A stretch of DNA of 21,874 bases from a virus. The notes below the pieces were generated by a model, which saw nothing but the letters and a program-made list of their open reading frames with translations, was not told the DNA's origin and made no database searches. The stretch covers positions 1-21,874 of the IMG/VR virus record IMGVR_UViG_3300025141_011333; one strand, given 5' to 3'. A program made the position numbers and the translations under genes. Of the stretch, positions 1 through 20,577 are shown piece by piece. Position 1 is the first letter of the stretch. Each line of letters begins with the position of its first letter.

Positions 1-38
1 AACAGCGATGATTGATTAAAATAAAAAGGGAGAAAAAA

Positions 39-1376
39 ATGGAAAATGCACTACCGTATGACGAGATGACGGAAAACGCTGTATTAGGTTCTGTTATCGC
101 AAATCCAGGAGAATATGATGCTGTGGCTAGATATTTTACTGATGAAAATGTGTTTTATCAAAGGAAAGCTAGATTACTCTGGAAACGGATAAAACGTATG
201 AAATATGATAAACAGACAATTGATACAGTTACCGTATGTTTATCGATTACAAAAAAAGACATAGATAAAGGACTTACCAAATACTATGTTACTGGATGCA
301 CCAGTAATACTTGTACTCCAGGTATGACTGAATTATATTCCAATCAGTTGTATGAGAAATATTTAATGAGGAAGATTATTGTTAAAGCTGATGAGATTAA
401 AGAGAACGCTGAAGACAATAAGAAAGATATCTATAAAACGATAAGTGAGACACACTCTATTCTTTCTGAGATATTAAATATAAGACCCACAATGGCTTCA
501 GATATTAATGATGTTATTGCAGATACTGTTGATAGCATTAAAAACAAAACAACAAAGCTAATCAAAACAGGTTATGATAATATTGATAACTTTTCAGGTG
601 GATTAACAAGGGGAGAGATAACAATCATAGGAGGAAGACCAGGTCATGGCAAAACCACTGTAATGATTAACATGTTAGCCAATGTATTGGAACAAGGATA
701 TAAGGCTATATTCTTCAGCAGAGAGCTTCCAAATTCTGAGCTTGTAAAGAAAATTGTGTGTTTAGAATCACAACAGCTGTCTTATGGTATGGTTCGTAAG
801 AACATATTCACTGAAGATGAATTAAAGTTTTTTAACTCTGCACTATCACATATAAAGGAGAAATATTCAAGCGATAAGTTTTTAATGTTTGATAATGTGA
901 GAGATTTCGCAGCCTCATCAGGAGAAGTGAAGAAGTTTAAACCAGATATTATATTTGATGATTATATACAGCTTATTGCCTGTGATTCAAGACAAGACCA
1001 AAGAAGGTTACAGATAGAACAGCTTGTTAATGATTATAAATGGTTAGCAAAAGAAACAAATGCTGTTGTTGTATTGGCTTCTCAATTAAATAGATTTATA
1101 GAGAGGGCAGGTTCTAGAGGTAAGGCTTTAATGCCTCAGTTATCAGATTTAGCTGAGAGTGGAGCCATAGAACAAGTAGCAGAGAATGTATTCTTTTCTT
1201 ACTACGATTATAAGGTCCAAGGGGAAAGAGGAAAAGGAAAAAATATCATAACCATATCAGCGGGGAAAGTTAGATACGGAGACAGTGGTACTGTTGATTT
1301 AGGATATGATGGAGATAAATGTAAAATATATAATTCAATAGGAGAAATGATAGATGACACCTTACCATTCAAATAA
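39..1376 (+). CDS. dnaB: DnaB-family replicative DNA helicase
   Basis: Replicative helicase that would unwind phage DNA at the fork as a hexamer. The 445-residue length is normal for DnaB. The N-terminal helical domain (about residues 5-110) begins with a DnaB-like ENAVLGSVI segment. The RecA-like C-terminal domain carries Walker A GGRPGHGKTT (198-207, Lys205), a Walker B acidic pair in IIFDDYIQL (Asp307/Asp308) and the family signature SQLNR (about 347-351) followed by LSDLAESGAIEQ. I chose ATG 39 because GGGAG lies 6-7 bases upstream; an in-frame TTG at 12 has no ribosome site and adds nine lysine-rich residues. It is the first gene in the window of a rightward replication operon, overlapping the resolvase gene by 23 bases. 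No primase domain or primase gene is visible, so it must lie outside the window or be supplied by the host. Family assignment is firm. Confidence 0.95.
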   Translation: MENALPYDEMTENAVLGSVIANPGEYDAVARYFTDENVFYQRKARLLWKRIKRMKYDKQTIDTVTVCLSITKKDIDKGLTKYYVTGCTSNTCTPGMTELYSNQLYEKYLMRKIIVKADEIKENAEDNKKDIYKTISETHSILSEILNIRPTMASDINDVIADTVDSIKNKTTKLIKTGYDNIDNFSGGLTRGEITIIGGRPGHGKTTVMINMLANVLEQGYKAIFFSRELPNSELVKKIVCLESQQLSYGMVRKNIFTEDELKFFNSALSHIKEKYSSDKFLMFDNVRDFAASSGEVKKFKPDIIFDDYIQLIACDSRQDQRRLQIEQLVNDYKWLAKETNAVVVLASQLNRFIERAGSRGKALMPQLSDLAESGAIEQVAENVFFSYYDYKVQGERGKGKNIITISAGKVRYGDSGTVDLGYDGDKCKIYNSIGEMIDDTLPFK

Positions 1377-2032: not shown

Positions 2033-2321
2033 AACATCAATGGAAAGGGCAGCAGACGCTGAAGACCCGAACTGTGATATAGATGAATGTAGGACGTGTG
2101 GAGCTCCAATTGATGAAGAACAAGGAGATATAAGAGGATATTTTGGTATATTACCCATGGCTTTTTGTGTGTGGTGTACATCATCATTAACGGATATGGT
2201 TATACAAATGAATGGATTTAATGATATTGATGTGTTAGAAGAGAGATTGGAAGAGCTTAAACATGAAGAGAAATATCCAGGAAAATCAAAACATTATTAC
2301 AATAGACAAGATGAACATTAA
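2022..2321 (+). CDS. Small zinc-ribbon protein, function unknown
   Basis: A 99-residue acidic protein with two CxxC pairs, CRTC (Cys23, Cys26) and CVWC (Cys49, Cys52), separated by 22 residues, the spacing of a treble-clef or zinc-ribbon knuckle. The C-terminal third (about 60-95) is a charged helix rich in Glu and Lys. The start ATG 2022 is preceded by AAAGGAG at 2006-2011 with 10 bases of spacing. It is embedded in the replication operon, overlapping both neighbours by 11 bases. Zinc ribbons of this size occur in nucleic-acid-binding and transcription-modulating phage proteins, but nothing here identifies the partner. Confidence 0.6.
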   Translation: MKSRTSMERAADAEDPNCDIDECRTCGAPIDEEQGDIRGYFGILPMAFCVWCTSSLTDMVIQMNGFNDIDVLEERLEELKHEEKYPGKSKHYYNRQDEH

Positions 2322-2400
2322 CAAAAAACTAACACTACTTATAGTATTATGGATACTCGATAAAGCAATCATGCTTATCATGTTGATATTACTTAATTGA
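2311..2400 (+). CDS. Possible 29-residue membrane peptide
   Basis: An ATG at 2311 inside the end of the zinc-ribbon gene opens a 29-codon frame ending in TGA at 2398-2400. The peptide is MNINKK followed by an almost wholly hydrophobic segment rich in Leu, Ile, Met and Val with a single Asp-Lys break, i.e. one membrane-spanning helix with a positive N-terminus. Its stop overlaps the TTG start of the next frame (bases TTGA), and it exactly fills the 75 bases between two genes. There is no clear ribosome site, so translation would depend on coupling to the upstream gene. It may be real or a chance reading of a short gap. Confidence 0.35.
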   Translation: MNINKKLTLLIVLWILDKAIMLIMLILLN

Positions 2401-2849
2401 TATATCTACAAGACATAATAGACTTATTTGGTGAATGTTATAGAGAAAAGGGGGATAGTTGGGTGAAAGTAACAGAAGAATATGCAAAGGGATTTGACCT
2501 TGATTTAAAGTTTGGAAAATTGGGAGAAGACTTTGTTAAAGACATACAAGATGGTAACAACAAGATAGAGGTAAAAACAGAAAGAGATATCTGGAAGACA
2601 ACAGGCAATATTGCCATTGAAATGAGGTATAAAGGGTCTCCATCAGGTATTTCCACAACTGAATCTAACCTGTGGGTGCATTTATTGAGCTATAAAGGGG
2701 TCATAGAGGGCGGATTTATGTTCAACGTAGACTTACTTAAGGAAAAGATAAAAAAGCTCCATAAAGATGGTGATTTAAAAATGGTGATGGGTGGGGATGA
2801 TAATATGAGTCAGATGGCTCTGCTTCCAATTAAGGAATTATGGGGTTAA
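2397..2849 (+). CDS. PD-(D/E)XK-like nuclease
   Basis: Up to 150 residues. The core reads GEDFVKDI, then KIEVKTE (the E-x-K catalytic strand), then TGNIAIEM and SGISTTESNLWVHLL, a layout shared with small phage proteins of the PD-(D/E)XK nuclease superfamily in which Glu and the ExK pair bind metal. Predicted activity is DNA cleavage, perhaps host DNA degradation or recombination; the substrate is unknown. The start is uncertain. TTG 2397 gives the full frame but has no ribosome site and overlaps the preceding peptide stop. GTG 2463, after AGGGGG at 2449-2454, would give 128 residues that keep the whole nuclease core. Its TAA overlaps the stop codon of the opposing giant gene, so there is no intergenic space for a terminator. 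Confidence 0.6.
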   Translation: MIYLQDIIDLFGECYREKGDSWVKVTEEYAKGFDLDLKFGKLGEDFVKDIQDGNNKIEVKTERDIWKTTGNIAIEMRYKGSPSGISTTESNLWVHLLSYKGVIEGGFMFNVDLLKEKIKKLHKDGDLKMVMGGDDNMSQMALLPIKELWG

Positions 2850-5800
2850 AAACCTTCTTTAATATCCCAATTGAAATCGTTATAATAATTTTGAACATTG
2901 AATTTTTTAGCATAATGCTTTAATTTAGAGGTGTAATCATTGAGCCTTGCTTTGTATTGTGCTTCAGCTTCAAATAATGTCATTGTAATTTTGTCAGCAT
3001 CACGATGTTGCTGTAGCCATTTAATAAACTTCATTGAATTTCTTTTGCCTTCCTTTCCACTTTTGAAAAGGCTCCCTTTATTTGGATTTAATGTTTTTAA
3101 CTTGGATTTCATTATTGAGAATGCTTTTTTAAATGCTATATTCATAGGGTCTCCAGTTCTATATCTATCATGAGCAACAGCAAAAAATGTTGAATAGAAT
3201 TGTTTAGCAAAATCTTCTTCATCACCGAGATAGAAAGAATTTTTAAAGTCCTCATAGTAAGGAGACAACTCGTTACCTTCCATATCTTTTGGCATAGATT
3301 GACCTTTTTCATCCATGAAATCTCTGTATAATTTTGATATTCTAATCCTGTCTCTATTTAGTGGATTATTTGTCCTTTCACGTATTTTCTGTATATTTGC
3401 ATATAAAGAAGTTGTATTACGAAATACACCATCCCCAAACTGATTAAAATTAGATTTACCTTCATATAATTGCCCTAATTCCATACCTATAGAGCCAATA
3501 GTATTAAAGATTGCAGGTTCAAGAGTTTGTGTGAATCCTGTGTCAAAAGGGCTGATTGCCTCTGACATTATACCTAAAAACTCACCTTTCCACATTGTTG
3601 TCCTAAATCTTGTCCACCAATCAGTATTTTCTTTTGGCATTTCAGTGCCAAGTAAGTGCCTATAAAGACCAATCATAGCACTCCCAGATAAATATGTTGC
3701 TGTCAATCCCATTATAGGTTTCATAAAGTTTTTATTTTGAACAGCTTCCTTTGTGTTTCTTATAGTATTTTCAGTTGCAGCAAAAGCCATACGTTTAAAT
3801 AAAGTAAGAGGTCTTAATCCTTCTTTACCTGCCCACTTAGGCATAAATAAATCTGCAGATGAGCCCTGCGTATTGATATGTGCATATGTATTCATTTTAT
3901 TATTAATATTTTCAACATCTCTCATTAATTGAATTTTCTCATAATTTGACAATGTATTGTCAGCTCTTACCTCTTTAGCATTTCCATATTTTATTCTTAA
4001 GGCTATTTCTTTGTCATTTAAAAAATAAAAAGATTTAAGTCTTCTGACTGCTTTTTGGTGCAGATTGCTTTCTTTTGGATGCAATGCTATTCTCTCCAAT
4101 AATCTTCTTTGTTCTGCTATTGATGAAGCTATTGCTAATAGTCTATTAAATTTTTCTGTAGGTCTCATAAATCCAGCCTTAAACGCTGTTGCATCCAATA
4201 CTTTATCAATTGCATGTCTACCCTCATATAAAACATTACCAACGGTAAATGCATTACTGTTCATAGCCCTATTATAAACTTCAGCATCTTTCGCTAAGAC
4301 TAAGGCGAAGCCTTCTCCAACATCTCTTAACCTATGGGCAAATACAGTTTGAGTCGTACCTGTTATTAAATTTTTAAATCCAGCGGTAGGAAAACTTAAA
4401 CCAAGTTTAGCTACGATTCTAGCAGTACTTTCAAGAGTTCTATAAGAAAGCTCATAAGGGTCTGCAGATTTTTCAGCACCTAACTGCTTATTAATAACTT
4501 CTTTAACCCAATTTAATTCTTTCTGTTTACCACCCTTTAAAATACCCTCAGCTCCTTGAAATACCTTATGTATTCCATTACCTGGTTTCATTCCTTGTAT
4601 GGCTTCTGGAAACATTTCTAATGTAGCATAGAACTTAGCCATTCCTTGTACATAAGGTGTAACGGTTTTATCAAATGAATTTTCATATGTTCTTACAAGC
4701 TTACCTTTTTCATTCTCAATATATAAATCTTGTAACGACAATCTATCCTTTAAATATTTTATCGATATCTTGCTTGGATTGAAATTAATCATATCATCAA
4801 ATTGCATCTCAGCTATCAGCCTTGAATCTTCCATTTCCTTGCTTAATTGTTCTTTTGTAAAGTCTTTCCCATACTTATCTTTTGCTCTTTTATAAGCTAT
4901 ATCTGTTGCTAGTTTATTTACAGCGTTTGCCCTAGCTCTTTCATTTACATATAATAATCTTTTGCCTTCCTGTGTTAAAGACCTTGTGATATAAATTCCA
5001 TCTTCTATAAATTTAATTCCAGATTTACTCGACATAGACTCAAATTCTGCTTGATTTGTGTTTTGTCGTAAAGAAGATTCAAACTTATCTTTTCCGAATC
5101 CTTTTTGTATAGTATCAATATATAGCTTTGCTATTTGACCCTCTTTTGTGTTTAGATTTATATATTTATAACTGCCATCTTTATTCTTTGCAGCCAACCC
5201 ATCTCCACGAGTCCTCCCATCTCTGCCTGTTTTTATTGTTTTGCTCCACTCAGGGTTTATTACCTTATCAAAAAATGACTGAGCATTTTTAATTATCTTT
5301 CCTTCACCTTTAGGAAGTTTATTCCCATATTCTTTTTTTGCTTTTTGTAAAGCAAGTAACATCTCTCCGTTATTATCAAGAGCCACAACCATATTGTTTT
5401 TTATTTTAGAAAGTTTAGTCTCTCTTGTAAGGAAATTACCTCCAATTATTTTTGAAGCACCTTCGTTGAATTTTAATAATGGGGATTCATTTGTCGCCTG
5501 TATAGAGTTATGTGTAAGTAATTTTTCAGCTATATCTGACATTCCAATTTTTTTAACAGCAGCATGAGTACTTCCTAGTATCATTGCACCTTCTTTTAAT
5601 CCACTTTGCATCCCGCTGTCTACTTCTGCCCTTCTTAAATTATTTACATCATTTAAGGACATCCAACCAACACCATCTCTTTGAACAATGTCTTGATTAA
5701 TAACAAAATCATTATATTCCTTTAGTTCTTTTACAGTTGCATTGAACAGCTTCCCGTCTTTAACATCTAAAGCCTTTAAGGTCTTAACTTGGTCTGCTAA

Positions 5801-8800
5801 AGTAATATTTCTTGGTAATCTATTCCTTTCGATATCTGATATGAGATTTAGTTTTTTTAATGCATCTTTTTTGCCAATAAAATCTTTAAGCTCTCCAGAT
5901 AAAACTTCATCAAATTTATTTACAAATTTATTTAATTCATTTATTTTTTCAGAATACTTAATAGAATTTTGGTCTTTAGGTATTGTTAGTCTGAAATTTT
6001 TAGGATTATCTATTCCTGCTCTTTTAGCAATAAACTCTATAAATTCATTTCTATTGACATTGTATTTCTTTTCAACATCCCTTACCTGTTTATTTAAAAA
6101 ATTCTTATAGGCTGAAGGACTTTCAAAACTCGCATCACTTATTTTTTTGTATTTAGTTACGCCACCTTTGAATTGCACACCTCTAGTATCTAGTTTTTGT
6201 GTTAATCTTTTAGATACGATATTTGCATAATCATTAAAATTACCTATGCCTAAGATAGTTTTAACTCTTGACACAACTTGTTTTAAAGCTTGATTAAATC
6301 TAGAGAATAGACTTGGAGGGAATGTTAAGGCTTGTGCCTTATCTCCAGTTACATCTGCTGTAAACTCTTCCATATCTCTATTTTTATTTTGCTTTTTACT
6401 TTTCCATTCTTTATACTCAGAAGTTTTACTGGCTAATTGCTCTAATATACTTAAATCCTTAGACAATTTTACATCATTGGTTTCCCTTGCATATGCTTTA
6501 AGCTTATGAAACTTCTCATGAAAGTAATCAGTTGGTTGAAATCTGTCTTTTGCAAGTAATATTGCTCCCTCTGCAGCATCTATAAACTGACCTAAAACAC
6601 CTTTCCCTAATTTTGCTTGCTGTAATTGTTCTGGAGACAGTTTATCTTTTGCTGCCCACCTTTCAACAAACCTTTCTCTTGCTGGGTCAAATCCCTGTTT
6701 GAATGGCCCTTTACTCACATCCCCTTTTTTAAATTTAACATCAATGGGAGAACCCATTTTTTTATGTAATTCTTTCTGAGCTATAATTAAATCAGAAGCT
6801 TCTTTAATATTATAAACTCTATCAATTCTTGTTCTTTCATGCCCAAACAAATAATTTTCAGTTGCCGATTCCTTCCCTCCTAATTTTGCACCAATAGATT
6901 TTCCTCTTCTTCTTAAATCATAAAAGGCAGAGTTTGGGTTATCAGACATTTTTTTCTTATTAATTAACTGACCAACTTTAGCTGCCTTACCCATTAAACT
7001 TTTTCCACTGCCTACGTATTGCATAATATCTTCTGCCAATTTTTTATCTATCCAAACTTTTCGATTAAAAGTATTATATTTGACGAAATTAGCGTCCATA
7101 TCAAGAAAATATTCTTTTGTCTTATCCTCAAATTTTAAATATTTTTCTAAATCTTTTGGGTTGTCTTTTAAAATTTCTGCTAATTTATTAATTTCTAAAT
7201 TTCTTATGTAATAACGTGCTCCCAGTTTACCTACTATCTCTACTCCTTTATCTCCACTAGCTATAGCTTCTTCAATAGTAAATTTCCTTATTCCTTTTTT
7301 TGCTGGGTTTTTACCTGCTCCACTTGCATTCCATTCATTATATTCATTCATAACAGTTCTTGCATATTCCATTAATCTATTTGAATCTGGGCCTCTTAAA
7401 AATTCATTTATTCCTAAATGTTTAAAAAATAAATTCAATTCATTTGACGGTTTATTACTCGTTGTATTCCCGTCTTTTCTTCCTAGTATATTATCATTGA
7501 AAAATTTATTTAAATCAGATATTTTAACTTCTGTAAGGTCTTTTCCTTTATATTCATTCAAAAACCTTGATACTTCAATTATTCCATTTTTAGGGTTTTT
7601 AATGACCCCAGTAGCAAAATCAGTCTTAGACCTACCTATATCGCCTGATAGCCTTGCTTTTGCGTAGTCAATAAAAGCAGAAGAGTCGAAATCGCCTCTT
7701 TCAATAGCAGCTCTAGAAAGTTCGCCAGTTTTATCTTTAGCATTAATCATTTCAACCAGTTTTACTTCTTCTAGTCGCATATCTTTTGTTTCGTTTTTTA
7801 GCTGTTTCTTCCAATCATAAGGTTTTTTATCACCTCTTTTTATAACCGTAAGTTTATCTCTTTCTGAAATTTTATCATTTAAATTTTTCCTAGACATAGG
7901 AATTTTAGCTGATATAGCCTGAACTTCAAACTCCTTTTCCTTTCTTTCAAGTTCTGATTGAACTAAAAACTCCATTTGTTCATCTAATGTTTTTGGAGTC
8001 TTTGTTTCTTTGGTAATTGTTTTTTTAGTCTTTGTAGGCTCAGAAGGAACTATATCATATTCATAACCAGTTGTCTCAAATTCTGGAGCACCTTCCACTT
8101 CAACTTCTTCAATATCTTTTTCTTTTACTTCTCTTTTAAGTGGGTCTCTTTGTTTTAATAATTCTTGTTTATATGTTTTCTTTAATCCTTCTCCAAGTGC
8201 TAAGGCTTCATTATATGAATCTCTTCTAGCCCCTGTAACTAATTCATTGCCTTTTGGAGTTGTTAATACAGGTTCATATCCAATTATTTCCCCATCTTTA
8301 TTTTTAACTTCTTTTACAGATACATCAAAGCTATCAGCATATTTAGTCCTCATCTTTTTAGCTATTCCAGGTTCATTTAAAGCACCTAGATTAACCATAT
8401 CATGAACATCTTCTAATGATTTTATTTTCTTGTTAAGCTCTGCGTCAATATCCTTAATTTTAGCTTCTGTAGACATTTCTTCTTTAGTAAAAAACTTCTC
8501 TTTATTTTTAGACATTTCTCTAGTGATTCCATACAAAGTATTATTAATGAATCCAAATTCTTTCAATAACTCTGCTCTAGCTGCATGTCTTTCTTTTCTA
8601 CTTGATAATTTTGGTATATCATCCATTTTATCAAGATTCTGCGTATATTTTTTTAATGCCTTATTGTATGCAGGAATACCTATATAAGCATCTCTTGCTT
8701 CTGATATAATATTAATCTTTTCTTGGACAAGCTCTGAAGGTATAGGGACACCAGCTTCAATTAAATCTGATTCTATTCTTTCAATCTTTTCATATCTGGA

Positions 8801-9985
8801 CTGCATTTCACCTTTTTCACCAACACCTAATAAATCATGAACTTTTCCTTTAGGGTCTGATTTTGTCTTAAATCCAGCCTTCTCGAATATATCACCATAA
8901 AAAGCGTGTTTTGCTTTCCTATACCTCTCAACATCTCCTTCTCCCATCCTTAATGGCTTCATTGAAGCTCTTAAACCACCAACAATAGCAGTGTTCATAA
9001 AAATACTTGAAAGCCAATCATCCATATCGACTTCTTCTCCCATTAAAGCCCGTTCTGCTATTTGACCAGTACCAAATAATGTACCTTCAGCAATTACTTG
9101 CCCTACTGGATTCATTGTTAATTGTGTCACTTTATTGGCAAATGTTTTGTCTGTAGCCATTCTAGCTTTTGCAAATTTTGGAGCCATTAATCCTTTTGTG
9201 AAATAGCCAGCTGCAGCCCCTAATGCTAAACTGCTTGCTCCATGCTTTGTTGCATTCCAAGTCATTTGTTTATAATCCATCTCATCTCTTAATCCATCTT
9301 TTATTTCAATGGATTGCTGTGCTGCATCTTGTAAAGCTCCTCCAGCAGCTCCATATGTCGCAAGACTAAATCCTGATTCAATACCTGCTCCTCTTGCTAA
9401 ATAATTATGAAATCCTCCAGCCATTGCTTTTCTTGTACTTCTATTTGCACCTGCTTTTGCTAACATTTGGCTAAATCCTTTTGTTGCCATATTCTTCAAA
9501 GGGCCATGCGTTATTGACTTTGCAGCTACACTCCCTACCCCACTACTACCAAAAAATGTTAACATATCTACAGGTGATACTAACCCAACGAAAAACTGAC
9601 CCGCTTCATCATACCATGCCCTATCAACATCTTCTTCTTTATATTTAGCTTCTCCATGCATAATTTGATATATAGTTCCAGCGATTGATTTATTATAGGC
9701 TTCTCCCCACCAATTACCATCCTCAGCCCACGCTTCAGATAAATTAGCCGTAAGTATCTTTTCAAAAAAACCAGGATTAGCTTTTTCGTCAAGTTCTTGT
9801 TGTGTAGGGATTTGTGATTGTTTGGGGTCTGATGTAGTAAATGGATTCTCCCCATAGCTAATATCATTTCCATCTTTATCTTTTTTATACACTCTTTGTA
9901 TATGTTGATAAACATCGTAGTCTGTCTGACCAAGAGTATTAAATCTCTCTTTATACCATTTGACTGCTTTTTCTGGGTTAATCAT
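2846..9985 (-). CDS. Giant polyvalent/ejection-type virion protein, 2379 aa
   Basis: Last gene of the leftward structural operon, directly after three probable internal virion proteins; position and size suggest a protein packaged in the head and ejected with the DNA, comparable in role to T7 gp16. Regions: an N-terminal segment with hydrophobic stretches (about 130-156 and 250-265, Gly/Ala rich); helical charged region (350-620); Pro/Thr/Lys/Glu linker (about 625-690); tyrosine-recombinase-like module (about 770-1065); zincin motif HEKFH (1156-1160) with EEFTAD at 1206-1211; a long helical region (1260-2080); a hydrophobic segment (about 2088-2112); and a charged C-terminus. Fusion of a metallopeptidase to long helical regions is typical of phage large polyvalent proteins. 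It starts at a TAATG overlap with the preceding gene and has no good ribosome site, so translation is probably coupled. The frame is uninterrupted, so this is an intact gene rather than a chance fusion. Confidence 0.85.
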   Translation of the reverse strand: MINPEKAVKWYKERFNTLGQTDYDVYQHIQRVYKKDKDGNDISYGENPFTTSDPKQSQIPTQQELDEKANPGFFEKILTANLSEAWAEDGNWWGEAYNKSIAGTIYQIMHGEAKYKEEDVDRAWYDEAGQFFVGLVSPVDMLTFFGSSGVGSVAAKSITHGPLKNMATKGFSQMLAKAGANRSTRKAMAGGFHNYLARGAGIESGFSLATYGAAGGALQDAAQQSIEIKDGLRDEMDYKQMTWNATKHGASSLALGAAAGYFTKGLMAPKFAKARMATDKTFANKVTQLTMNPVGQVIAEGTLFGTGQIAERALMGEEVDMDDWLSSIFMNTAIVGGLRASMKPLRMGEGDVERYRKAKHAFYGDIFEKAGFKTKSDPKGKVHDLLGVGEKGEMQSRYEKIERIESDLIEAGVPIPSELVQEKINIISEARDAYIGIPAYNKALKKYTQNLDKMDDIPKLSSRKERHAARAELLKEFGFINNTLYGITREMSKNKEKFFTKEEMSTEAKIKDIDAELNKKIKSLEDVHDMVNLGALNEPGIAKKMRTKYADSFDVSVKEVKNKDGEIIGYEPVLTTPKGNELVTGARRDSYNEALALGEGLKKTYKQELLKQRDPLKREVKEKDIEEVEVEGAPEFETTGYEYDIVPSEPTKTKKTITKETKTPKTLDEQMEFLVQSELERKEKEFEVQAISAKIPMSRKNLNDKISERDKLTVIKRGDKKPYDWKKQLKNETKDMRLEEVKLVEMINAKDKTGELSRAAIERGDFDSSAFIDYAKARLSGDIGRSKTDFATGVIKNPKNGIIEVSRFLNEYKGKDLTEVKISDLNKFFNDNILGRKDGNTTSNKPSNELNLFFKHLGINEFLRGPDSNRLMEYARTVMNEYNEWNASGAGKNPAKKGIRKFTIEEAIASGDKGVEIVGKLGARYYIRNLEINKLAEILKDNPKDLEKYLKFEDKTKEYFLDMDANFVKYNTFNRKVWIDKKLAEDIMQYVGSGKSLMGKAAKVGQLINKKKMSDNPNSAFYDLRRRGKSIGAKLGGKESATENYLFGHERTRIDRVYNIKEASDLIIAQKELHKKMGSPIDVKFKKGDVSKGPFKQGFDPARERFVERWAAKDKLSPEQLQQAKLGKGVLGQFIDAAEGAILLAKDRFQPTDYFHEKFHKLKAYARETNDVKLSKDLSILEQLASKTSEYKEWKSKKQNKNRDMEEFTADVTGDKAQALTFPPSLFSRFNQALKQVVSRVKTILGIGNFNDYANIVSKRLTQKLDTRGVQFKGGVTKYKKISDASFESPSAYKNFLNKQVRDVEKKYNVNRNEFIEFIAKRAGIDNPKNFRLTIPKDQNSIKYSEKINELNKFVNKFDEVLSGELKDFIGKKDALKKLNLISDIERNRLPRNITLADQVKTLKALDVKDGKLFNATVKELKEYNDFVINQDIVQRDGVGWMSLNDVNNLRRAEVDSGMQSGLKEGAMILGSTHAAVKKIGMSDIAEKLLTHNSIQATNESPLLKFNEGASKIIGGNFLTRETKLSKIKNNMVVALDNNGEMLLALQKAKKEYGNKLPKGEGKIIKNAQSFFDKVINPEWSKTIKTGRDGRTRGDGLAAKNKDGSYKYINLNTKEGQIAKLYIDTIQKGFGKDKFESSLRQNTNQAEFESMSSKSGIKFIEDGIYITRSLTQEGKRLLYVNERARANAVNKLATDIAYKRAKDKYGKDFTKEQLSKEMEDSRLIAEMQFDDMINFNPSKISIKYLKDRLSLQDLYIENEKGKLVRTYENSFDKTVTPYVQGMAKFYATLEMFPEAIQGMKPGNGIHKVFQGAEGILKGGKQKELNWVKEVINKQLGAEKSADPYELSYRTLESTARIVAKLGLSFPTAGFKNLITGTTQTVFAHRLRDVGEGFALVLAKDAEVYNRAMNSNAFTVGNVLYEGRHAIDKVLDATAFKAGFMRPTEKFNRLLAIASSIAEQRRLLERIALHPKESNLHQKAVRRLKSFYFLNDKEIALRIKYGNAKEVRADNTLSNYEKIQLMRDVENINNKMNTYAHINTQGSSADLFMPKWAGKEGLRPLTLFKRMAFAATENTIRNTKEAVQNKNFMKPIMGLTATYLSGSAMIGLYRHLLGTEMPKENTDWWTRFRTTMWKGEFLGIMSEAISPFDTGFTQTLEPAIFNTIGSIGMELGQLYEGKSNFNQFGDGVFRNTTSLYANIQKIRERTNNPLNRDRIRISKLYRDFMDEKGQSMPKDMEGNELSPYYEDFKNSFYLGDEEDFAKQFYSTFFAVAHDRYRTGDPMNIAFKKAFSIMKSKLKTLNPNKGSLFKSGKEGKRNSMKFIKWLQQHRDADKITMTLFEAEAQYKARLNDYTSKLKHYAKKFNVQNYYNDFNWDIKEGF
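6236..6628 (-). other. Zincin metallopeptidase domain inside the giant protein
   Basis: Residues about 1120-1250. HEKFH at 1156-1160 fits the HExxH zinc motif, preceded by a helix (FIDAAEGAILLAKD). The downstream EEFTAD (Glu1206/Glu1207, Asp1211) supplies a likely third ligand, as in the metallopeptidase domains of phage and conjugative-element polyvalent proteins. The tail of the domain reads FPPSLFSRFNQALKQVV then ILGIGNFNDYANIVSKRL, a helix-plus-loop ending I associate with that family. A role in maturing virion proteins or cleaving a host target after ejection is inference. Confidence 0.65.
6791..7678 (-). other. Tyrosine-recombinase-like module inside the giant protein
   Basis: Residues about 770-1065. 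The first part (770-880) resembles the SAM-like core-binding domain of integrases, with EVSRFLNEYKGKDLTEVK then SDLNKFF and later ELNLFFKHL. The second part carries the catalytic landmarks in order: box I YIRNLEINKL (Arg928, Glu931, matching R-x-x-E-x-x-x-L), a basic hairpin KYNTFNRKVWID (Lys969 or Lys976), box II YDLRR (Tyr1022, Arg1025), LFGH (His1049) and RVY (Tyr1058). The spacing Arg to Arg is 97, Arg to His 24 and His to Tyr 9, against about 99, 23 and 9 in XerD as I remember it. The usual box II histidine is tyrosine. Domain boundaries are estimates. Confidence 0.65.
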
Positions 9986-11640
9986 TATTTATATAAATTT
10001 TGATAATGCTTACTAGGAAATGTAGAAGGCATTTTTATCCAATATTTCCCATATTTAAGAGTCCTTGTTAATTTAAAATATTCTTCTTCATTTTGAGAAA
10101 TAAATTCATCAATAGTCAAGTTTGAATTTTCAAATTTGATTTTAAATTCATTAATTTTTTTTCTACTCTGTTTTCCAATAATACCGTCTTTTTGTTTTTT
10201 ATCTCCCCAAGCTCCTTCTGTTAATGCTTGAGATTGATTAAACTCCCCTAATAAATATTTTTTCATAGCAACTGACGCTTTATCTGCTCCATCTAATATT
10301 TCTTTTTTTTCTCTAATTCTATTTTCAACATCTTCTATTTTTGAGTCTATAAAACCTTGCCTCTGAGGAAGTTCTGTTGATTTATCTTTTTTTAATTCAT
10401 CTAAACTAACCCCATCAATTTCTCCTGAATCATAAAAACTTACTGGTTTTTTCAATTCTCCCGAAAGATATTTTTTTATAACATTTAGGTCTGTTGTTCC
10501 ATATCTTTCCATTAAATCTTCATTTGATTTTTTAAGCTCCTCTTTTTCCTGTTCAGCAAAAATAGTTTCTTCCTCTTTAGCTTGTTGCTCTTCAATAGTA
10601 ATAATACCATCGCCATCTAAATCAGCTGTTTCAATCAAACTCTGACTATCTGGAAGCTCATCCGCATACCAACTGCCAGACCAATTTTTATAACCTTGCC
10701 TAGCTTTATCATCCCTCGTTTGTACAAGTCTTAGTTCTTTATCAAGTATCTCTTTTGCTCCAATAGTATCTCCTGCAGCAGCTTTATCATTTATTCCCTT
10801 AAAATCAACATCTGGCATAAGGGCTTGCCACTCAGCTAAATCATCATCAGCAAGTTCTCCCCATTTAGCTTTTAAAAGATAATTCTTTAGACTTGTAGTA
10901 GTACCTATTACTGACTTAAATTCAGCCATTTTTTTAGTTCTTATTTGAGTTAGAGCAGCTGGCGTTAGCATTCCATTAGAAATTGCTGCTGCCTCTTCTT
11001 CTGTTATTGAATCATCTCCCATCATTGCAGTTAACGCTTTATCGAGATTAGTCTTATATCTTGTCAATTTATCAGCTATATCATCTTCATCGAAAGTTCC
11101 ATCTCCAATACCCGATGGCATTCTAAATAACTTTTCCTTAGTCTGAGGGTGAAGTCCTAAACTTAGCTTTTCTTCTAATTTAGATATTCTTACATACTCA
11201 TTATTAAGCATATCCAAATTTGATTCATATTTAGGCTGTCCTTCATCATTAACTAAAGATGCTCTTGTTGCATCTAAATCCATCCAATCCGAAGCTTTTG
11301 GTTTATATTCGTCACTTTTTAGAAATTCATCAGCTTGAGTTAATGCAGTGGAATATTCATTAAACTTGTAGTTTTTATTTTCCATTACATTTTCTAGTGC
11401 AGCATGATTTAAAGAAGTTGAGTCATATTTAGAACTTCTATCCTTTATATTGTTTAAAGCCTGTTGAGCATTAGCGATTTGTGCTGGAGTTTGTGCAGTT
11501 ACTAAAAGATTTTTAATTGCTTCCTGTTGCCCTGATATACTCTCCTTTGCTCTTTCATGCCCAGATGAAAACGCTTCAAGCAATTGTAATATCTCTGCTG
11601 TTGAACCTCTATTTATTTGTTGAGATTTATAATCCGCCAT
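9985..11640 (-). CDS. Probable internal virion protein with EF-hand loop
   Basis: A 551-residue, mostly helical, acidic protein of unknown family. The N-terminal 120 residues are Gln/Ala/Asn-rich helices; charged helices and coiled-coil-like stretches (about 352-390 and 420-450) follow. Residues 340-351 are DLDGDGIITIEE, a perfect canonical EF-hand calcium loop (Asp at 1, 3 and 5, Gly at 6, Ile at 8, Glu at 12), flanked by helix-forming sequence. Its place between small ejection-type proteins and the giant protein suggests a head-internal or DNA-ejection component; this is positional inference. The start ATG follows AAAGGATTCAA. Its stop overlaps the start of the giant gene by one base (TAATG). 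Confidence 0.75.
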   Translation of the reverse strand: MADYKSQQINRGSTAEILQLLEAFSSGHERAKESISGQQEAIKNLLVTAQTPAQIANAQQALNNIKDRSSKYDSTSLNHAALENVMENKNYKFNEYSTALTQADEFLKSDEYKPKASDWMDLDATRASLVNDEGQPKYESNLDMLNNEYVRISKLEEKLSLGLHPQTKEKLFRMPSGIGDGTFDEDDIADKLTRYKTNLDKALTAMMGDDSITEEEAAAISNGMLTPAALTQIRTKKMAEFKSVIGTTTSLKNYLLKAKWGELADDDLAEWQALMPDVDFKGINDKAAAGDTIGAKEILDKELRLVQTRDDKARQGYKNWSGSWYADELPDSQSLIETADLDGDGIITIEEQQAKEEETIFAEQEKEELKKSNEDLMERYGTTDLNVIKKYLSGELKKPVSFYDSGEIDGVSLDELKKDKSTELPQRQGFIDSKIEDVENRIREKKEILDGADKASVAMKKYLLGEFNQSQALTEGAWGDKKQKDGIIGKQSRKKINEFKIKFENSNLTIDEFISQNEEEYFKLTRTLKYGKYWIKMPSTFPSKHYQNLYK

Positions 11641-11662
11641 TTGAATCCTTTTATTTTAAATT

Positions 11663-12133
11663 TTATCCGTATCTAATTCCAGAAGCTTGCTGTTGCCACT
11701 GATTAATCATATCTTGTACTGATTTCAATGATTGAGCCCTTTGTTGCCCTGTTTGTGACAATACATCAGTCATTCCCTTACCATATACATCCTTAATTTC
11801 ACCCGTATATTGTTGTTGTTGTCCACTACCTGCAAAACCACCAGCAGCTTGTATTCCTTTTTCTCCGCCTCCAGCTGCTAGCATTTTACTTAATAATGTT
11901 TGTCCTGTTGCTTCAACTTGAGGAGAATATGTCCCTGCAAGTCCTCCTTTAAGTAAGTCTGAAGATAGAGGTTGAAACATACTTGATGGTAATTGATAGG
12001 AACTTAATCCATATTGGCTTTGTAATGCCTGTGAAATATCACCAGCCCCAAGTTGCCCAAGACCACTAAAACCACCAGAAACGTCAAGTCCCATACTTTG
12101 TAATTGTTGCATTATATCATCAATCATTGCCAT
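11663..12133 (-). CDS. Small Gly/Gln-rich internal virion-type protein
   Basis: A 156-residue protein, low in charge and rich in Gly, Gln, Ser and Leu, opening with the amphipathic helix MAMIDDIMQQLQSMG and closing with a Gln-rich helix (about 118-150). There is no signal peptide and no recognised domain. Composition and position in a cluster of three before the giant gene resemble ejection or internal core proteins of podoviruses (compare P22 gp7/gp20 or T7 gp14 by role only). AAGGAG lies 9 bases before the start, within the last codons of the 315-residue gene. I do not recognise the family. Confidence 0.65.
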   Translation of the reverse strand: MAMIDDIMQQLQSMGLDVSGGFSGLGQLGAGDISQALQSQYGLSSYQLPSSMFQPLSSDLLKGGLAGTYSPQVEATGQTLLSKMLAAGGGEKGIQAAGGFAGSGQQQQYTGEIKDVYGKGMTDVLSQTGQQRAQSLKSVQDMINQWQQQASGIRYG

Positions 12134-12134
12134 A

Positions 12135-13082
12135 TTATCTATCTCCTTCCATTTGAGTCAATAATAATAGTAAATTCATAAGAATATTTGAGCCTTGTTT
12201 GCCTTTTCCTAATAATGTTGCAGGGTCTTGTGCAAATGCTCCCTCTTCACCAAACAATGATTGTGTAAAAGTTTGTTTTCCTTCTAGCCCTTGTAATTGT
12301 TTAAATAACTCATCTGATGATATCCCTAATTCATCTGAAAGGCCAGAAAACGAATCCCCTGATTTAGTTGGGTCTAAATCATAAAAAGTTTCTCCTCCTC
12401 CGCCTCCAACTGATTTTCCATAGCTTTCTGTTAATTTTTGAGTATCAATACCAGCCTTTTGAGCTCCTTTTAATAATTTTGCTTCTTTCCCTACAACAAC
12501 ATCTCCTGCTTTAGCTCCTTCGAATGTTTTTCCGATACCTTCTCCCATTTTACCCATTGCATAACCTTTTATTCCTTCAGTCAATCCTGTTTTAAATAAA
12601 TCACCGCCAGACACTTTTGTTGCTTCAAGCATATCGTCAAGCATACTTTCATTTCCAGCAGCTATTCTTCCTGACTCTTTACCTAAAAATGTTCCTCCCC
12701 ATTTACCTGCATCAAGGCCAGCACCCTTTGCTGCCTCTATTTGTTGTTGTGCAAATTTTGATTGCTGTTTTGCTTTATACATTCCCGATAAACCTGCTAG
12801 AGTTGCACCTGCTATAGTACCAACACCAGGAATTAATCCCAACATAGGAGCAATTGTTTCTAAAAACCCTCCGAAACCTTTAGTTTCTCTTTTCTGGTTT
12901 AATAGTTCTTTTTGTTTTCTTTGAGAAGCTATTTGTTCTTTCTGAAATTCTTCAGACATCTCCCCTTTCTGTTGACCAAAAGCAAGAGCTCCAGTTTTTT
13001 GAGCCTGTTCTGACCCTAATAAACTCTCTAATAATCCTTGTTGTGTACTTGCGATACCATAAGGGTTGTATCCATTCGCCAT
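12135..13082 (-). CDS. Glycine-rich hydrophobic internal virion-type protein
   Basis: A 315-residue protein. Residues about 27-70 form a Gln/Lys/Glu-rich helix. Residues about 72-103 are a glycine-rich hydrophobic segment (ETIAPMLGLIPGVGTIAGAT) able to insert into a membrane. A run of five glycines lies near 225, and a Leu-rich segment (NILMNLLLLL) ends the protein. This pattern, a soluble coiled region plus a glycine-zipper membrane segment, is common in phage proteins that leave the head and form a DNA channel across the cell envelope. AAGGAGTAAGAT precedes the ATG. It follows a 106-base gap after the fibre gene and is the first of a four-gene ejection-type block. No family name can be given. 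Confidence 0.7.
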   Translation of the reverse strand: MANGYNPYGIASTQQGLLESLLGSEQAQKTGALAFGQQKGEMSEEFQKEQIASQRKQKELLNQKRETKGFGGFLETIAPMLGLIPGVGTIAGATLAGLSGMYKAKQQSKFAQQQIEAAKGAGLDAGKWGGTFLGKESGRIAAGNESMLDDMLEATKVSGGDLFKTGLTEGIKGYAMGKMGEGIGKTFEGAKAGDVVVGKEAKLLKGAQKAGIDTQKLTESYGKSVGGGGGETFYDLDPTKSGDSFSGLSDELGISSDELFKQLQGLEGKQTFTQSLFGEEGAFAQDPATLLGKGKQGSNILMNLLLLLTQMEGDR

Positions 13083-13173
13083 ATCTTACTCCTTTTTTAA
13101 TCCAATCCGTCTATTAAATATATTAATTATTCTCATCATTTACAAATCTACATTTTATGTTATAATTGTTGCA

Positions 13174-13239
13174 GGTAATGCTGTTGCTTTAATCATATTC
13201 TGCAAAATCTGATACTGCTGTTGGTAATGCTGTTGCTTT
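13174..13239 (-). repeat. Direct repeat of the fibre 3' end across its stop codon
   Basis: The 17-base sequence ggtaatgctgttgcttt occurs at 13174-13190 and again at 13223-13239. The second copy lies inside the fibre gene and encodes KATALP near its C-terminus; the first lies just past the fibre stop. In the transcript direction the downstream copy can be read as MIKATALPATIIT followed by a stop, a frame-shifted echo of the fibre C-terminus. The rest of the gap to 13083 is AT-rich with no clear terminator and holds only the ribosome site of the next gene. Confidence 0.8.
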
Positions 13240-14937
13240 CATTATAAAATCACAATGTTCTCCTGAACCTCCACCCCAATTTAGATAACCATTGCCTATT
13301 CCTGAAGATTGTTTTTTAAAACCAACCCAATAGTTATATGTATCACCTGCTGTTAATCCTGTAACTGCCCAATAATGTTGTATTGTCGCATTGTCTGTTT
13401 CATCAATTAAGTTAATTGCTTGTTCATAAGTAGCACCTGCTGTACTATATCCACTTGTTGCATTTGCAGTAGATAATCCTATAAAGGTGGTATTATTCGC
13501 TTGAGCATCTACTTTAATTTGAATCATAATCTCAACTGCACCACTTGGAGGAGCAATAAATCTAATTCCCATATCATCATCAGGAACAACAAAAGAGGTT
13601 GTTAAAGTATAAGTAGTTCTACTTGCATCTTCTCCAATCATTCTATATCCAATTATCATTCCTGCATAAGCACTATTTGCTACACTAAATTCAGTAACAG
13701 TATCTCCACTTACAGTCCCTGCTACCCAATTAGTTGCTCCCATTGTAATCTTGTCATTAGCTTCATCAAGAATTAACATTTTATCTGCACCAACAACAAT
13801 ATCTAATACATCATCAGAAGATTCGTCTAAGTAGGTATGAGTTCCTCCATCAAAATATAATTTCTTTGTTGCATCAATAGTAAAATTCCCACTTGGTATC
13901 TCAACATCTACATCTCCATCTACTGTTGCACTTCCTGTTAATCTTACTCCTGTAGATAATCCTCCATTATATTCTGCTACTCTAAGTTCTAGTCTTCCTG
14001 ATTCACTTCCTGCTGTTACATCATCTGCTTTTGCTTTAATTGACGCATATAAAGTTTGGTTACCACCACTATCCTCACCATGAAACATAATTCTACCTAT
14101 TGTATCACTATCAGCAGGAGAAGCACTATTTCTATATATTGATATATCAGGACTATGATTACTTCCATCATCAGTTGATTCTATTATTAATTGAGAAGTT
14201 GAAGCATTAGTTGTTACTAAATGTAAACAATCTGCACTTGTATCCCACAGCATATAATTTGAAGCTGTATCACCAAAAAACTTTACATCATATCCAGCAT
14301 CATCTACACCAACAGTTAAATTACTAACGATTGTTACAGTATCACTTACAGGGTCTAAGATTAAATCTCCATCAGGAATTAATGACATATGTGCTACTGC
14401 ACCACTATCATCAGTTGTCCTTAAATTCGTAACTCCATGTTCTGCCACTTCAAGTGAAAACAAATCATTAGGGTCATCTGTATCTTTTAAAGTAAGTGTG
14501 CTATTTGATGTGTTTATTTGGAATAAAGATACATCTACCCCAAGAATACCATAATTAAAAATACCACTAGAAGTCCCTATAAAATAAAAGTCATCACCTG
14601 ATGTTAGAAGGTAAGTATCTCCTCCTGAAATATATAAATCTAATGTTCCTGTAGAATCTGTTGATTCAAATCGTGTATATACATTTGGTCTAAATGTTAA
14701 ATACATACTATCACACTCTACTAAATGTGATGTTAATTTACCATTAAGAAATAAATCTCCATTTATTCTAAGCTCATCCTTATTTAAAGAAAGGGGGGTA
14801 TTCTCCCCCCCAATCTTTATAACTTTCTGATGAGTATCTAAAACATCGTCATCCCCTAATAGAATTGGATTCTTTCTGTTTGGCTCAAAAGAACCATCAG
14901 TAATAGAGTGAAGTTGGGGTAGACGAGCTCTAGGCAT
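13189..14937 (-). CDS. Tail fibre / appendage protein
   Basis: A 582-residue protein rich in Asp, Thr, Ser and Gly with many short beta-strand repeats (for example SNLTVGVDDAGYDVKFFGD, GNFTIDATKKLYFDGG, VLDIVVGADKMLILDEANDK), the style of trimeric beta-structured phage fibres that bind host receptors. The N-terminal 60 residues (MPRARLPQLHSITDGSFEPN) are distinct and probably attach to the virion. From about 430 on, the sequence changes to a globular-looking Thr/Ala-rich tip. There is no catalytic motif for a depolymerase and no intramolecular chaperone signature that I recognise. Translation probably depends on the upstream 49-residue gene through a TAATG overlap, as no ribosome site precedes the ATG. 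The 3' end is duplicated downstream. Confidence 0.8.
   Translation of the reverse strand: MPRARLPQLHSITDGSFEPNRKNPILLGDDDVLDTHQKVIKIGGENTPLSLNKDELRINGDLFLNGKLTSHLVECDSMYLTFRPNVYTRFESTDSTGTLDLYISGGDTYLLTSGDDFYFIGTSSGIFNYGILGVDVSLFQINTSNSTLTLKDTDDPNDLFSLEVAEHGVTNLRTTDDSGAVAHMSLIPDGDLILDPVSDTVTIVSNLTVGVDDAGYDVKFFGDTASNYMLWDTSADCLHLVTTNASTSQLIIESTDDGSNHSPDISIYRNSASPADSDTIGRIMFHGEDSGGNQTLYASIKAKADDVTAGSESGRLELRVAEYNGGLSTGVRLTGSATVDGDVDVEIPSGNFTIDATKKLYFDGGTHTYLDESSDDVLDIVVGADKMLILDEANDKITMGATNWVAGTVSGDTVTEFSVANSAYAGMIIGYRMIGEDASRTTYTLTTSFVVPDDDMGIRFIAPPSGAVEIMIQIKVDAQANNTTFIGLSTANATSGYSTAGATYEQAINLIDETDNATIQHYWAVTGLTAGDTYNYWVGFKKQSSGIGNGYLNWGGGSGEHCDFIMKATALPTAVSDFAEYD
14793..14811 (-). other. G6/C7 hairpin within the fibre gene
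   Basis: Six G (14793-14798) and seven C (14805-14811) flank a 6-base loop, giving a strong six G:C-pair hairpin in an AT-rich gene. It encodes fibre residues about 43-49 (IGGENTP). In the mRNA the seven-G run is also a potential slippage site. No function is shown. Confidence 0.6.
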
Positions 14938-15086: not shown

Positions 15087-15087
15087 T

Positions 15088-15369: not shown

Positions 15370-15370
15370 A

Positions 15371-15902: not shown

Positions 15903-15904
15903 TT

Positions 15905-16797: not shown

Positions 16798-16848
16798 AGA
16801 TTTCCTTAAAATTTATTGGAGTAATTTAGTATAAAAACTTGAAATTTC

Positions 16849-17641: not shown

Positions 17642-17658
17642 TTTATCTCCTATTATTA

Positions 17659-17685: not shown

Positions 17686-17707
17686 CATTTCAAACACTAT
17701 CTAGCTA

Positions 17708-18607
17708 TTAGCTAGCATTAGTGAATTTATAACCTTTTTTATTGCTTGCGCTATCAACAAGTTTAGCACCATATATCATATCTGCTACTACTTTAGTTCC
17801 AAGAGCATCAATAGAATATTCTGCTTGTACTCTTACATCTTGCTGAACTGCACATACAGCAGCCGATTTATGAAAAACAGCTCCTGATATTGCTGTTCCT
17901 GCTGTAGCAACTGTATTTGACATATAGACATTTATACCAAATAATCTGCCCATAAATCCTTTAGTTCCACCATTATTCAAAATAGAACCATCGCCACCTG
18001 CATCAGCTCTCCAAAAGTTTTTAGAGATACCTGCATTAGGGTCTAAGATGTCAGCCATAAATGTTGGATTGACAACTAAAGAACATTCGCCATCCATATA
18101 AGGCACATCATTCTCACCTAAATTAGCAAGTGCTGCTTGAAATTCAGCAGCCGTTATTGCATCGTCAGCAGTTAAAGTAGCACCTTCATTAACACCATCA
18201 AGTTCTGCCCAAATATCAGCATCTACAGCTCTAGCAAGAGCTTCGCCAAACATCTGAGTATATTTAGATACTAAATCAGAATTTGATTGAATTAAAAGTA
18301 CATCTTCAAAAAGCATTGCATTATATTTATGCTTATCTATTGCTAATTGAGTAACTGTTGTTGCTGTTGCATCATAAGTTACTAATGTATTAGCAGCTTT
18401 ATCTGATGAAGCATCAAAATCAATTTGTGGGATATTAACTGTATCGCCACTTCCTTTTACTAAAGAAGAATAATCTTCAATTAAATTCTTGAAGACTGTT
18501 CCTCTTTCAAAATATCTGTAGATACCATCACTCCACAACTCTGGTACAAAATCATCAGCAGTTGAGGTTGTGTGAGCAGCACCTAACATTCCACCTGTTA
18601 TTGCCAT
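17708..18607 (-). CDS. Major capsid protein
   Basis: A 299-residue protein, probably of HK97 fold and nearest in style to P22-like or N4-gp56-like coat proteins. Features: N-arm MAITGGMLGAAHTTSTADDF, then VPELWSDGIYRYFERGTVFKN (helix), a GSGDTVNIPQID strand, the long spine-helix-like stretch ALARAVDADIWAELDG, and a C-terminal A-domain region with FGINVYMSNTV and VVADMIYGAKLVD. Composition is Ala/Asp/Gly/Thr rich with few Arg, usual for coat proteins. AGGAG precedes the ATG. It follows the scaffold gene and precedes a strong hairpin, the standard setting of the most highly expressed late gene. No prohead protease is seen in the window, in line with scaffold-based, uncleaved coat assembly. Confidence 0.88.
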   Translation of the reverse strand: MAITGGMLGAAHTTSTADDFVPELWSDGIYRYFERGTVFKNLIEDYSSLVKGSGDTVNIPQIDFDASSDKAANTLVTYDATATTVTQLAIDKHKYNAMLFEDVLLIQSNSDLVSKYTQMFGEALARAVDADIWAELDGVNEGATLTADDAITAAEFQAALANLGENDVPYMDGECSLVVNPTFMADILDPNAGISKNFWRADAGGDGSILNNGGTKGFMGRLFGINVYMSNTVATAGTAISGAVFHKSAAVCAVQQDVRVQAEYSIDALGTKVVADMIYGAKLVDSASNKKGYKFTNAS

Positions 18608-19250: not shown

Positions 19251-19272
19251 ATTATGCAAATTTTTGAATAAT
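19251..19272. promoter_or_regulatory. Palindromic operator-like site, terL-proximal
   Basis: Second copy of the 22-bp palindrome: left arm ATTATGCAAA exact, TT centre, right arm tttgaataat with one mismatch. Its centre lies 52 bp from that of the first copy, about five helical turns, so two bound dimers would sit on the same face of the DNA and could loop or cooperate. It covers the TTG at 19264 that could start terL, which slightly favours use of the downstream ATG at 19309. Confidence 0.65.
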
Positions 19273-19278
19273 TCACAA
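19251..19278 (-). promoter_or_regulatory. Candidate leftward promoter for the structural operon
   Basis: On the minus strand TTGTGA (complement of 19273-19278) is followed after 16 bases by CATAAT (complement of 19251-19256), resembling -35 and -10 boxes of a sigma70-type promoter. The -10 box is one arm of the terL-proximal palindrome, so binding there would block the promoter. Transcription would start near 19244, leaving a leader of about 78 bases before the scaffold ATG. A matching rightward CATAAT exists at 19215-19220 but with no convincing -35 box. Confidence 0.35.
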
Positions 19279-20577
19279 TCAGATTATAAGAAAAGGTGGT
19301 TTGAGTATATGGGGTATAAACCTCATTATGGGCAAACCAAATTGCATTATCCAGAAAAAGATACTGCGAGGTTTTTTGTCATGGTATGTGGTAGAAGATT
19401 TGGAAAGACTACAGCATCAGCTATGGAGGCAACTTATTATGCTTCTCAGCCTAACCAAAAGATTTGGCTTGTAGGATTATCCTATGATAAAGCAGATTTA
19501 ATGTTTCGTGAGGTATGGAAATTGATGGTAGTAGGGCATGCTAATGATATAGTAAGAGCTTCTGAGAAAGAAAGAATTATAAAATTTAAATGGGGCACTA
19601 CAGTAGAGGCTAAATCTGCAGACAATCCTGACTCACTTGTTGGTGAGGGATTAGACTTACTTGTTATAGATGAGGCAGCTAAAGTAAAAAGGAGAATATG
19701 GGATATGTATCTTTCTCCGACTCTTTCCGATAGAAAGGGGAAGGCAATATTTATCACGACTCCAGAAGGATTCAACTATGTTTATGATTTATTTCTCTTA
19801 GGCAAAGAAGATGAATTATGGGAATCTCATCAAGCCCCTTCATGGGACAACCATTTTGCCTTCCCTGACGGAAAAAAAGACCAATTTATCCTCGAAAGAA
19901 AGAGGAATATGGCAAAAGAGGTGTTTGAGCAAGAATATGGAGCTAAGTTTACCTCATTCTCAGGTCGTGTTTACCCATTCGATAGGGAACTTGATGTAGG
20001 AGAGTTTCCTTATAATCCGAATTTTCCTACTTTTTGCTCCATAGATTTTGGGTATCGTATGCCTGCTGTTGGGTGGTTTCAAATTCACAGAGTTGGTGGA
20101 TTATGGCATATAAATATGATAGATGAGATATTACATAAAAGTAATATTAAAACAGACGAGTTAGCCTTAAAAATTAAGGCAAAACCTTATAATGTCCTTA
20201 AATATTATGGCGACCCTGCAGGGATGCAAGCTCAAGGGCAGTCAGGTATGGGAGATATAGAAATATTCAGAAGAAAGGGTATAATTATTAATACAAAGAG
20301 GGATAAGGTGTCAAGAAGTATCTCATCAGGTGTTTCTCATCTCAGAGGCTTCATAGAAAATGCCGAAAACCAAAGATTTTTACATATTCACAAAAAATGC
20401 ACAGGAATGATGGAAGATTTAGAGAATTATCGTTATCCTGAAGCAAAAGAAGGACAAGATTTAAAACCAGAACCACTAAAGGATGGTTATCATGACCATG
20501 GAGCAGATATGATAAGATATTTCTTTATAAACCAATTTCCAATTAAAAACAGACAATTTAAAGTGAGGACAAGATGA
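19264..20577 (+). CDS. terL: Terminase large subunit
   Basis: Packaging motor ATPase and nuclease, 437 residues from TTG 19264. ATPase: Walker A CGRRFGKTT (42-50, Lys48), Walker B LLVIDEAA (Asp136, Glu137), coupling motif ITTPEG (about 164-169). RNase H-like nuclease: SIDFG (Asp261), YGDPAG (Asp317) and HDHGADMIRY (Asp411, Asp415). All key residues are present. The start is uncertain. TTG 19264 lies inside a palindromic site with no ribosome site, but its extra residues include RWFEYMGYKPHYGQ, which resembles the conserved opening of related terminases as I remember them. ATG 19309 follows AAGGTGG by 9 bases and gives 422 residues. No small subunit is visible. It overlaps the portal gene by four bases (ATGA) and runs opposite to the capsid genes. 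Confidence 0.93.
   Translation: MNNSQSDYKKRWFEYMGYKPHYGQTKLHYPEKDTARFFVMVCGRRFGKTTASAMEATYYASQPNQKIWLVGLSYDKADLMFREVWKLMVVGHANDIVRASEKERIIKFKWGTTVEAKSADNPDSLVGEGLDLLVIDEAAKVKRRIWDMYLSPTLSDRKGKAIFITTPEGFNYVYDLFLLGKEDELWESHQAPSWDNHFAFPDGKKDQFILERKRNMAKEVFEQEYGAKFTSFSGRVYPFDRELDVGEFPYNPNFPTFCSIDFGYRMPAVGWFQIHRVGGLWHINMIDEILHKSNIKTDELALKIKAKPYNVLKYYGDPAGMQAQGQSGMGDIEIFRRKGIIINTKRDKVSRSISSGVSHLRGFIENAENQRFLHIHKKCTGMMEDLENYRYPEAKEGQDLKPEPLKDGYHDHGADMIRYFFINQFPIKNRQFKVRTR

Follow-up and report, generated by a model that had tools for sequence, protein, structure and literature searches.

Tyrosine recombinases such as XerD, XerA, Cre and lambda Int (PF00589) are stand-alone enzymes, in which a core-binding domain is joined to a catalytic domain. 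The box II histidine of their active site is usual, yet not strictly defining, as it varies among natural members. Cre circularises or resolves the genome of P1 at repeated sites. Polyvalent proteins, which include the virion RNA polymerase of N4, are giant multidomain proteins of phages and conjugative elements (Iyer et al. 2017, PMC5512222). The presence of zincin peptidases in polyvalent proteins delivered with DNA is established and processing of the chain has been proposed for them; the words integrase and recombinase are absent from the main text of that survey (PMC5512222).

The locus described here was analysed in a window of 21,874 nt, the whole stretch of IMG/VR record IMGVR_UViG_3300025141_011333. 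A single open frame on the minus strand (2846..9985) encodes a giant protein of 2379 aa of the ejection (polyvalent) type, which is homologous over its whole length to its relatives. One end-to-end homologue (L100) has 46% identity across residues 1-2375 by tblastn, another relative (L093) has 62-71% identity outside one middle gap, and more than 40 further marine virus contigs are also homologous. Among the close members, similarity is highest at residues 1-400 and from residue 1600 to the end, and residues 600-900 are the most variable. The N-terminal region (residues 1-360; 8906..9985, minus strand) is kept in close and in many distant members, with matches of relatives at residues 1-370 and a mean identity of 0.42-0.59 per 100 residues. 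The C-terminal domain of about 760 residues (2894..5173, minus strand) is matched in every family member (59 of 59 rows); a search for its relatives in PHROG and PDB found none at useful E-values. The giant protein is organised as conserved N- and C-terminal regions flanking a variable middle, which holds a recombinase and an HExxH peptidase. Several unrelated enzymatic domains in one chain are a mark of polyvalent proteins, and the recombinase and the HExxH region provide them here, the peptidase being named by motif and weak matches.

The relatives were reached through a neighbouring gene, that of a DnaB-like helicase (12..1376, plus strand; PHROG 19, E 1.5e-70). Relatives of this helicase carry the giant gene: by tblastn, the giant protein has matches at 44 loci, and at most of these the frame in the same place stays open for 2200-2800 codons. 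The family grew to 59 rows when the C-terminal domain served as query in a further scan, for which the profile was built from the closer set of 10, a profile of 33 being too diverse. Relatives of the terminase were also tried as a source of homologues and proved a false trail, their tail block being unlike the giant protein. Among 50,697 phage records no relative of the whole giant protein was found, even at E 10; pattern scans using the giant protein itself gave zero relatives, and three other giants searched against the phage records gave a single weak match, over the peptidase region.

Recognition of the recombinase needed these relatives, because the single sequence gives no useful database match, whether to a Pfam integrase, a PHROG or a PDB chain. 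When 12 members (the others being 17-31% identical to the window protein) were aligned and compared by hhalign with six known recombinases (XerD, XerC, lambda Int, HP1 Int, P22 Int and Cre), the two profiles matched with a probability of 93% and E 3.2e-7, placing R928 opposite the box I arginine of XerD. As a control, the C-terminal domain of the same family reached a probability of 0.2% and E 0.3 against the same recombinases. The AlphaFold2 model of the domain, made from the family alignment, has a pLDDT of 78.8 and a pTM of 0.67. The 20 best Foldseek matches of this model in PDB are all tyrosine recombinases, with XerA first (E 1.2e-3), followed by Cre, IntI and the SSV1 integrase. TM-scores taken over the whole chain and by query length are low, at 0.28-0.35, probably from a differing relative placement of the two domains; the catalytic domain of SSV1 alone gives a TM of 0.65 by its own length. 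Among structural matches in BFVD, phage integrases stand at the head and a model of baculovirus VLF-1 is found at rank 20. Profile and structure thus bore out the recombinase reading that a first-pass annotation, made from the letters alone, had proposed for the middle of this protein.

Domain models point in the same direction with less force. Phage_int_SAM_4, an N-terminal integrase domain, was found in five of the 12 members (best E 1.9e-6), and XerD is the best PDB profile match of the core-binding part (E 0.11). A PF00589 search of 68 related virus records gave nine matches with per-genome E-values of 1e-6 to 1e-3, all below the curated cut-off and all inside giant ORFs; each match is weak singly, and it is the shared location that counts. 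In the window itself PF00589 found no match, and the curated model does not assign the domain. No stand-alone integrase was seen among the 68 related records, many of which are fragments, and 21 records of the terminase lineage gave zero PF00589 matches. A chance likeness of an alpha-helical region to recombinases was considered as well, and is ruled out, as far as we can judge almost entirely, by profile, fold and conservation.

By sequence profile and predicted structure, then, residues 745-1080 (about; window 6746-7753, minus strand) form a tyrosine recombinase fold, in which a core-binding helical part precedes the catalytic domain. The module had been placed at residues 770-1065; the recombinase does lie there, and is slightly longer. 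The SAM-like core-binding part occupies residues 745-890 (7316..7753) and is drawn from the AlphaFold2 helices, Phage_int_SAM_4 and the hhalign match to the XerD N-domain. The catalytic domain follows at residues 891-1080 (6746..7315), as delimited by profile, fold and conservation. The landmarks R928, E931, Y1022, R1025, G1048, H1049 and Y1058 sit exactly where they had been read, and the lysine of the basic hairpin is K969. Their spacing in the giant protein is 97 residues from Arg to Arg, 24 from Arg to His and nine from His to Tyr. In E. coli XerD, the residues R148, H244, R247, G269 and Y279 are invariant in the alignment of the six recombinases and yield a spacing of 99, 23 and 9, if His270 follows G269, in agreement with the values of about 99 and 23 given in the first-pass annotation.

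The residue set of the superfamily, comprising Arg-I, the box I acid, Lys, Arg-II, the box III His and Tyr, is present in the giant protein. It was followed through 18 members with a median pairwise identity of 18%, where only five columns are identical in at least 16 members. These columns are Arg-I (R928, 7202..7204, 18 of 18), the acidic residue of the box I R-x-x-E (E931, 7193..7195, 18 of 18), the nucleophile position (Y1058, 6812..6814, 18 of 18), the histidine of the box III GH (H1049, 6839..6841; 17 of 18, with Q in L195) and the beta-hairpin lysine (K969, 7079..7081; 16 of 18 as aligned, the remaining two rows being gapped with a Lys nearby), all on the minus strand. Arg-II (R1025, 6911..6913, minus strand) is R in 13 of 18 as aligned; the other five rows, read by eye after a register shift, hold one R and four K. 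The invariants of the 12-member alignment are R928, E931, K969, R975, G1048, H1049, I1054 and Y1058. The histidine of box II (H-x-x-R) is missing in the giant protein, its place being taken by Y1022 (6920..6922, minus strand), with Y, T or F in near relatives. Because this position varies naturally, Y1022 was not counted as excluding membership of the superfamily.

Conservation of this kind bears on what the domain does. We favour catalysis, as read from the alignment, because in the canonical members no columns are kept better than those of the catalytic residues, in a domain that otherwise changes fast. Against activity stand the box II Tyr and the apparent Lys for Arg-II in four members. 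A serious rival is a DNA-binding or packaging role like that of MrpR or VLF-1. In the former case, the recombinase fold would bind DNA without cutting it, anchoring the ejection protein to the genome or its end in the head, or binding on entry. A precedent is MrpR of SPbeta, a DNA-binding protein derived from a tyrosine recombinase fold (PMC10516654), and two observations of the family agree with it: catalytic positions are lost in part of the members, and the SroF repressor of phi3T appears among the structural matches of a second model, that of a rearranged member. MrpR, however, has lost Arg-I and further essential positions. In the present family R, E, K, H and Y are conserved better than any other column of the domain, and DNA binding alone would not single out catalytic columns across 18 divergent members. 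We regard binding without cutting as unlikely.

The loss of catalytic positions has its own pattern. In about half of the family the recombinase region is eroded or rearranged, the members having been grouped by hand from alignments as canonical, rearranged or other. The rearranged members are L103, L104, L108, L091, L099, L112, L132, L129, L137, L136, L156, L149, L186, L205 and L135. In the middle of their giant ORFs the order is the core-binding part, box II, box III with Tyr, a box I-like R-x-x-E downstream and, directly after it, HExxH. The box II Arg is found in 15 of 15 and the Tyr in most, and the usual box I is weak. As a profile, the rearranged group matches the canonical group well (probability 96%, E 8e-9) and known recombinases weakly (probability 35%, E 4e-4); the model of one rearranged member is confident, yet its PDB matches are weak. 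The rearranged region could be a circular permutation, a duplication or tandem remnant, or decay. A tree built from the C-terminal domain shows clustering of the 18 members that keep the canonical catalytic set, without uniting them in one clade (five changes). With so many members altered in this region, activity is not required by all of them, and the family variation says that the giant protein does not need the recombinase for its basic virion role.

Next to the recombinase lies a zincin-like metallopeptidase region (5996..6733, minus strand) with HEKFH at residues 1156-1160, about 100 residues past the recombinase Tyr. An HExxH motif stands at the equivalent place in most full-length members, and weak SprT-like matches were found in five members; the window's own peptidase region has no Pfam match above threshold. 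The zincin assignment is made because of the HExxH motif, its position and the SprT-like matches.

The virion character of the giant protein, as it had been labelled beforehand, is inferred from gene order. In the window, the genes before the giant gene on the same strand encode scaffold-like, capsid, lysozyme, fibre-like, 315-, 156- and 551-aa proteins. Directly upstream lies g551, a probable partner virion protein of 551 aa (9985..11640), preceded by g156, a probable small virion protein of 156 aa (11663..12133), and g315, a probable virion protein of 315 aa (12135..13082), all on the minus strand and in an order shared by relatives. The fibre-like protein, by our own reading (13189..14937, minus strand), keeps this order in some relatives. 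The major capsid protein (17708..18607, minus strand; PHROG 267, E 1.6e-40) is encoded on the strand of the giant gene, and the terminase large subunit (19264..20577; PHROG 2, E 5.9e-49) on the plus strand. The order g315, g156, g551 and giant gene recurs in other genomes; in the 49 kb contig G057, TerL, portal and capsid lie upstream of the fibre-like gene, g315, g156, g551 and the giant gene and share their strand. Because of this order in the window and its relatives, the giant gene is placed among the late structural genes, and its product is probably part of the virus particle, to judge by the ejection and polyvalent proteins already known.

Two further rivals turn on this location. As the virion location rests on gene order, the giant protein may instead be an intracellular product of the late operon, its recombinase domain serving, for example, concatemer resolution with no delivery; against this speak the polyvalent architecture, which includes a zincin-like region, and the fact that several genomes have the giant gene amid their structural genes, and we hold it to be improbable. 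Alternatively, the recombinase may act in assembly, processing or packaging the genome in the manner of VLF-1, a nucleocapsid protein of the tyrosine recombinase family involved in packaging (PMC11654684). The VLF-1 model among the structural matches and the position of the giant gene beside assembly genes fit such a role. That fold match is weak, however, the phage family has its own terminase and portal, and the fusion with a peptidase motif in an ejection-type protein suits delivery better, so that a part in assembly appears quite unlikely.

The window looks like a mosaic, with 16849-21872 set against 1-16800. For its terminase, portal, capsid and scaffold the counterparts are found in one abundant lineage of marine phages, in whose tail block there is nothing like the giant protein. 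DnaB, the giant protein, g551, g156 and g315 match a second lineage with different head genes, and a terminase search of that DnaB/giant lineage was empty. The mosaic is likely the result of natural exchange; a chimeric assembly was also considered, and would leave the finding intact because independent contigs also carry the giant gene together with its neighbours. Common to both lineages is a 259-aa protein (16018-16797; 52-80% identity in the second lineage), a calcineurin-type phosphoesterase by motifs in our own reading, for which no Pfam match was found. A small gene (2397-2849; PHROG 13596, unknown function), lying on the opposite strand where the giant gene has its 3' end, is shared by 55 loci and is nuclease-like by our own reading. 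A 162-aa protein (1354-1842) begins with a RuvC-like DPGKSGG, again by our own reading, and has a weak DUF460 match only. In two relatives (L163:6355-12006, L166:4701-10400) a further very large protein, of about 1900 aa, is encoded ahead of the fibre-like gene; it is absent from the window, and the L166 copy has no PHROG match.

Taken as a whole, we give about even weight to the reading that the giant protein is a polyvalent ejection protein carried in the virion, whose variable middle holds, besides a zincin peptidase, a tyrosine recombinase competent for catalysis. Under such a scheme, the giant protein would enter the cell together with the phage DNA, the zincin peptidase would cut the recombinase free, and the recombinase would form 3'-phosphotyrosine bonds on DNA at once. 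The most likely substrate would be the incoming phage genome, before any phage gene is expressed, and this genome may be circularised or resolved at repeated sites, as Cre does in P1. Circularisation or resolution would be the most natural step; inverted repeats and a dif-like site were sought in the window, with no convincing recombination site found. The best perfect dyad of the window (17659-17685) resembles a terminator. Integration of the phage genome seems less likely, on the weak evidence of one pattern scan of 84,980 species genomes with the C-terminal profile, of limited sensitivity, in which no relative of the giant protein and no prophage was found. For an attack on host or rival DNA, which had also been raised, nothing specific speaks here.

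These observations suggest that, in a family of uncultured marine phages, the DNA may be accompanied into the cell by a recombinase that is already made. We consider it possible, while leaning against it, that in widespread uncultured marine phages a recombinase fused to an ejection protein and freed by a peptidase circularises or resolves the genome before the genes are read, with the catalytic domain of part of the group rearranged so that box I lies downstream of the nucleophile. If the domain is active, an enzyme of DNA strand exchange would arrive in the cell along with the phage genome. Polyvalent proteins are known for a virion RNA polymerase, peptidases, nucleases and ADP-ribosyltransferases; an active recombinase would add a new class to these delivered activities and would be relevant to the way in which linear phage genomes gain stability at entry. 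The analysis also gives a function to a region missed by automated annotation across a marine family, with Y1058 as a testable residue.

How this locus stands among known systems can now be set out. A full-text search of open-licence papers found no precedent for an integrase or recombinase domain in a virion polyvalent protein, nor any described case of an integrase domain beside a peptidase motif, as the first-pass annotation had supposed; a virion-borne polyvalent protein with a tyrosine recombinase domain appears undescribed. With XerD, XerA, Cre and lambda Int, the giant protein shares the core-binding and catalytic domains, the catalytic residues and an XerD-like spacing; unlike them, it has a box II Tyr for His, is too divergent for the Pfam model, and carries the domain within a giant late protein. 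MrpR/YopR of SPbeta and SroF of phi3T are phage proteins with the same fold, whereas MrpR has lost its catalytic residues and functions as a repressor. VLF-1 of baculoviruses is likewise of the tyrosine recombinase superfamily and is a protein of the virus particle, a location that is inferred for the giant protein; it differs in belonging to an unrelated virus group, in being a stand-alone protein and in its packaging role. The tape measure protein of P23-45 is reported to be fused to a virion RNA polymerase, and so also places an enzyme in a giant virion protein, an RNA polymerase and not a recombinase (PMC10770324). In architecture the giant protein resembles the polyvalent proteins (Iyer et al. 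2017, PMC5512222), which are likewise giant, multidomain and equipped with HExxH zincin-like regions, and whose entry into the cell with the DNA is presumed for the giant protein as well; it differs in its conserved C-terminal domain, for which PHROG and PDB gave no relative at useful E-values.
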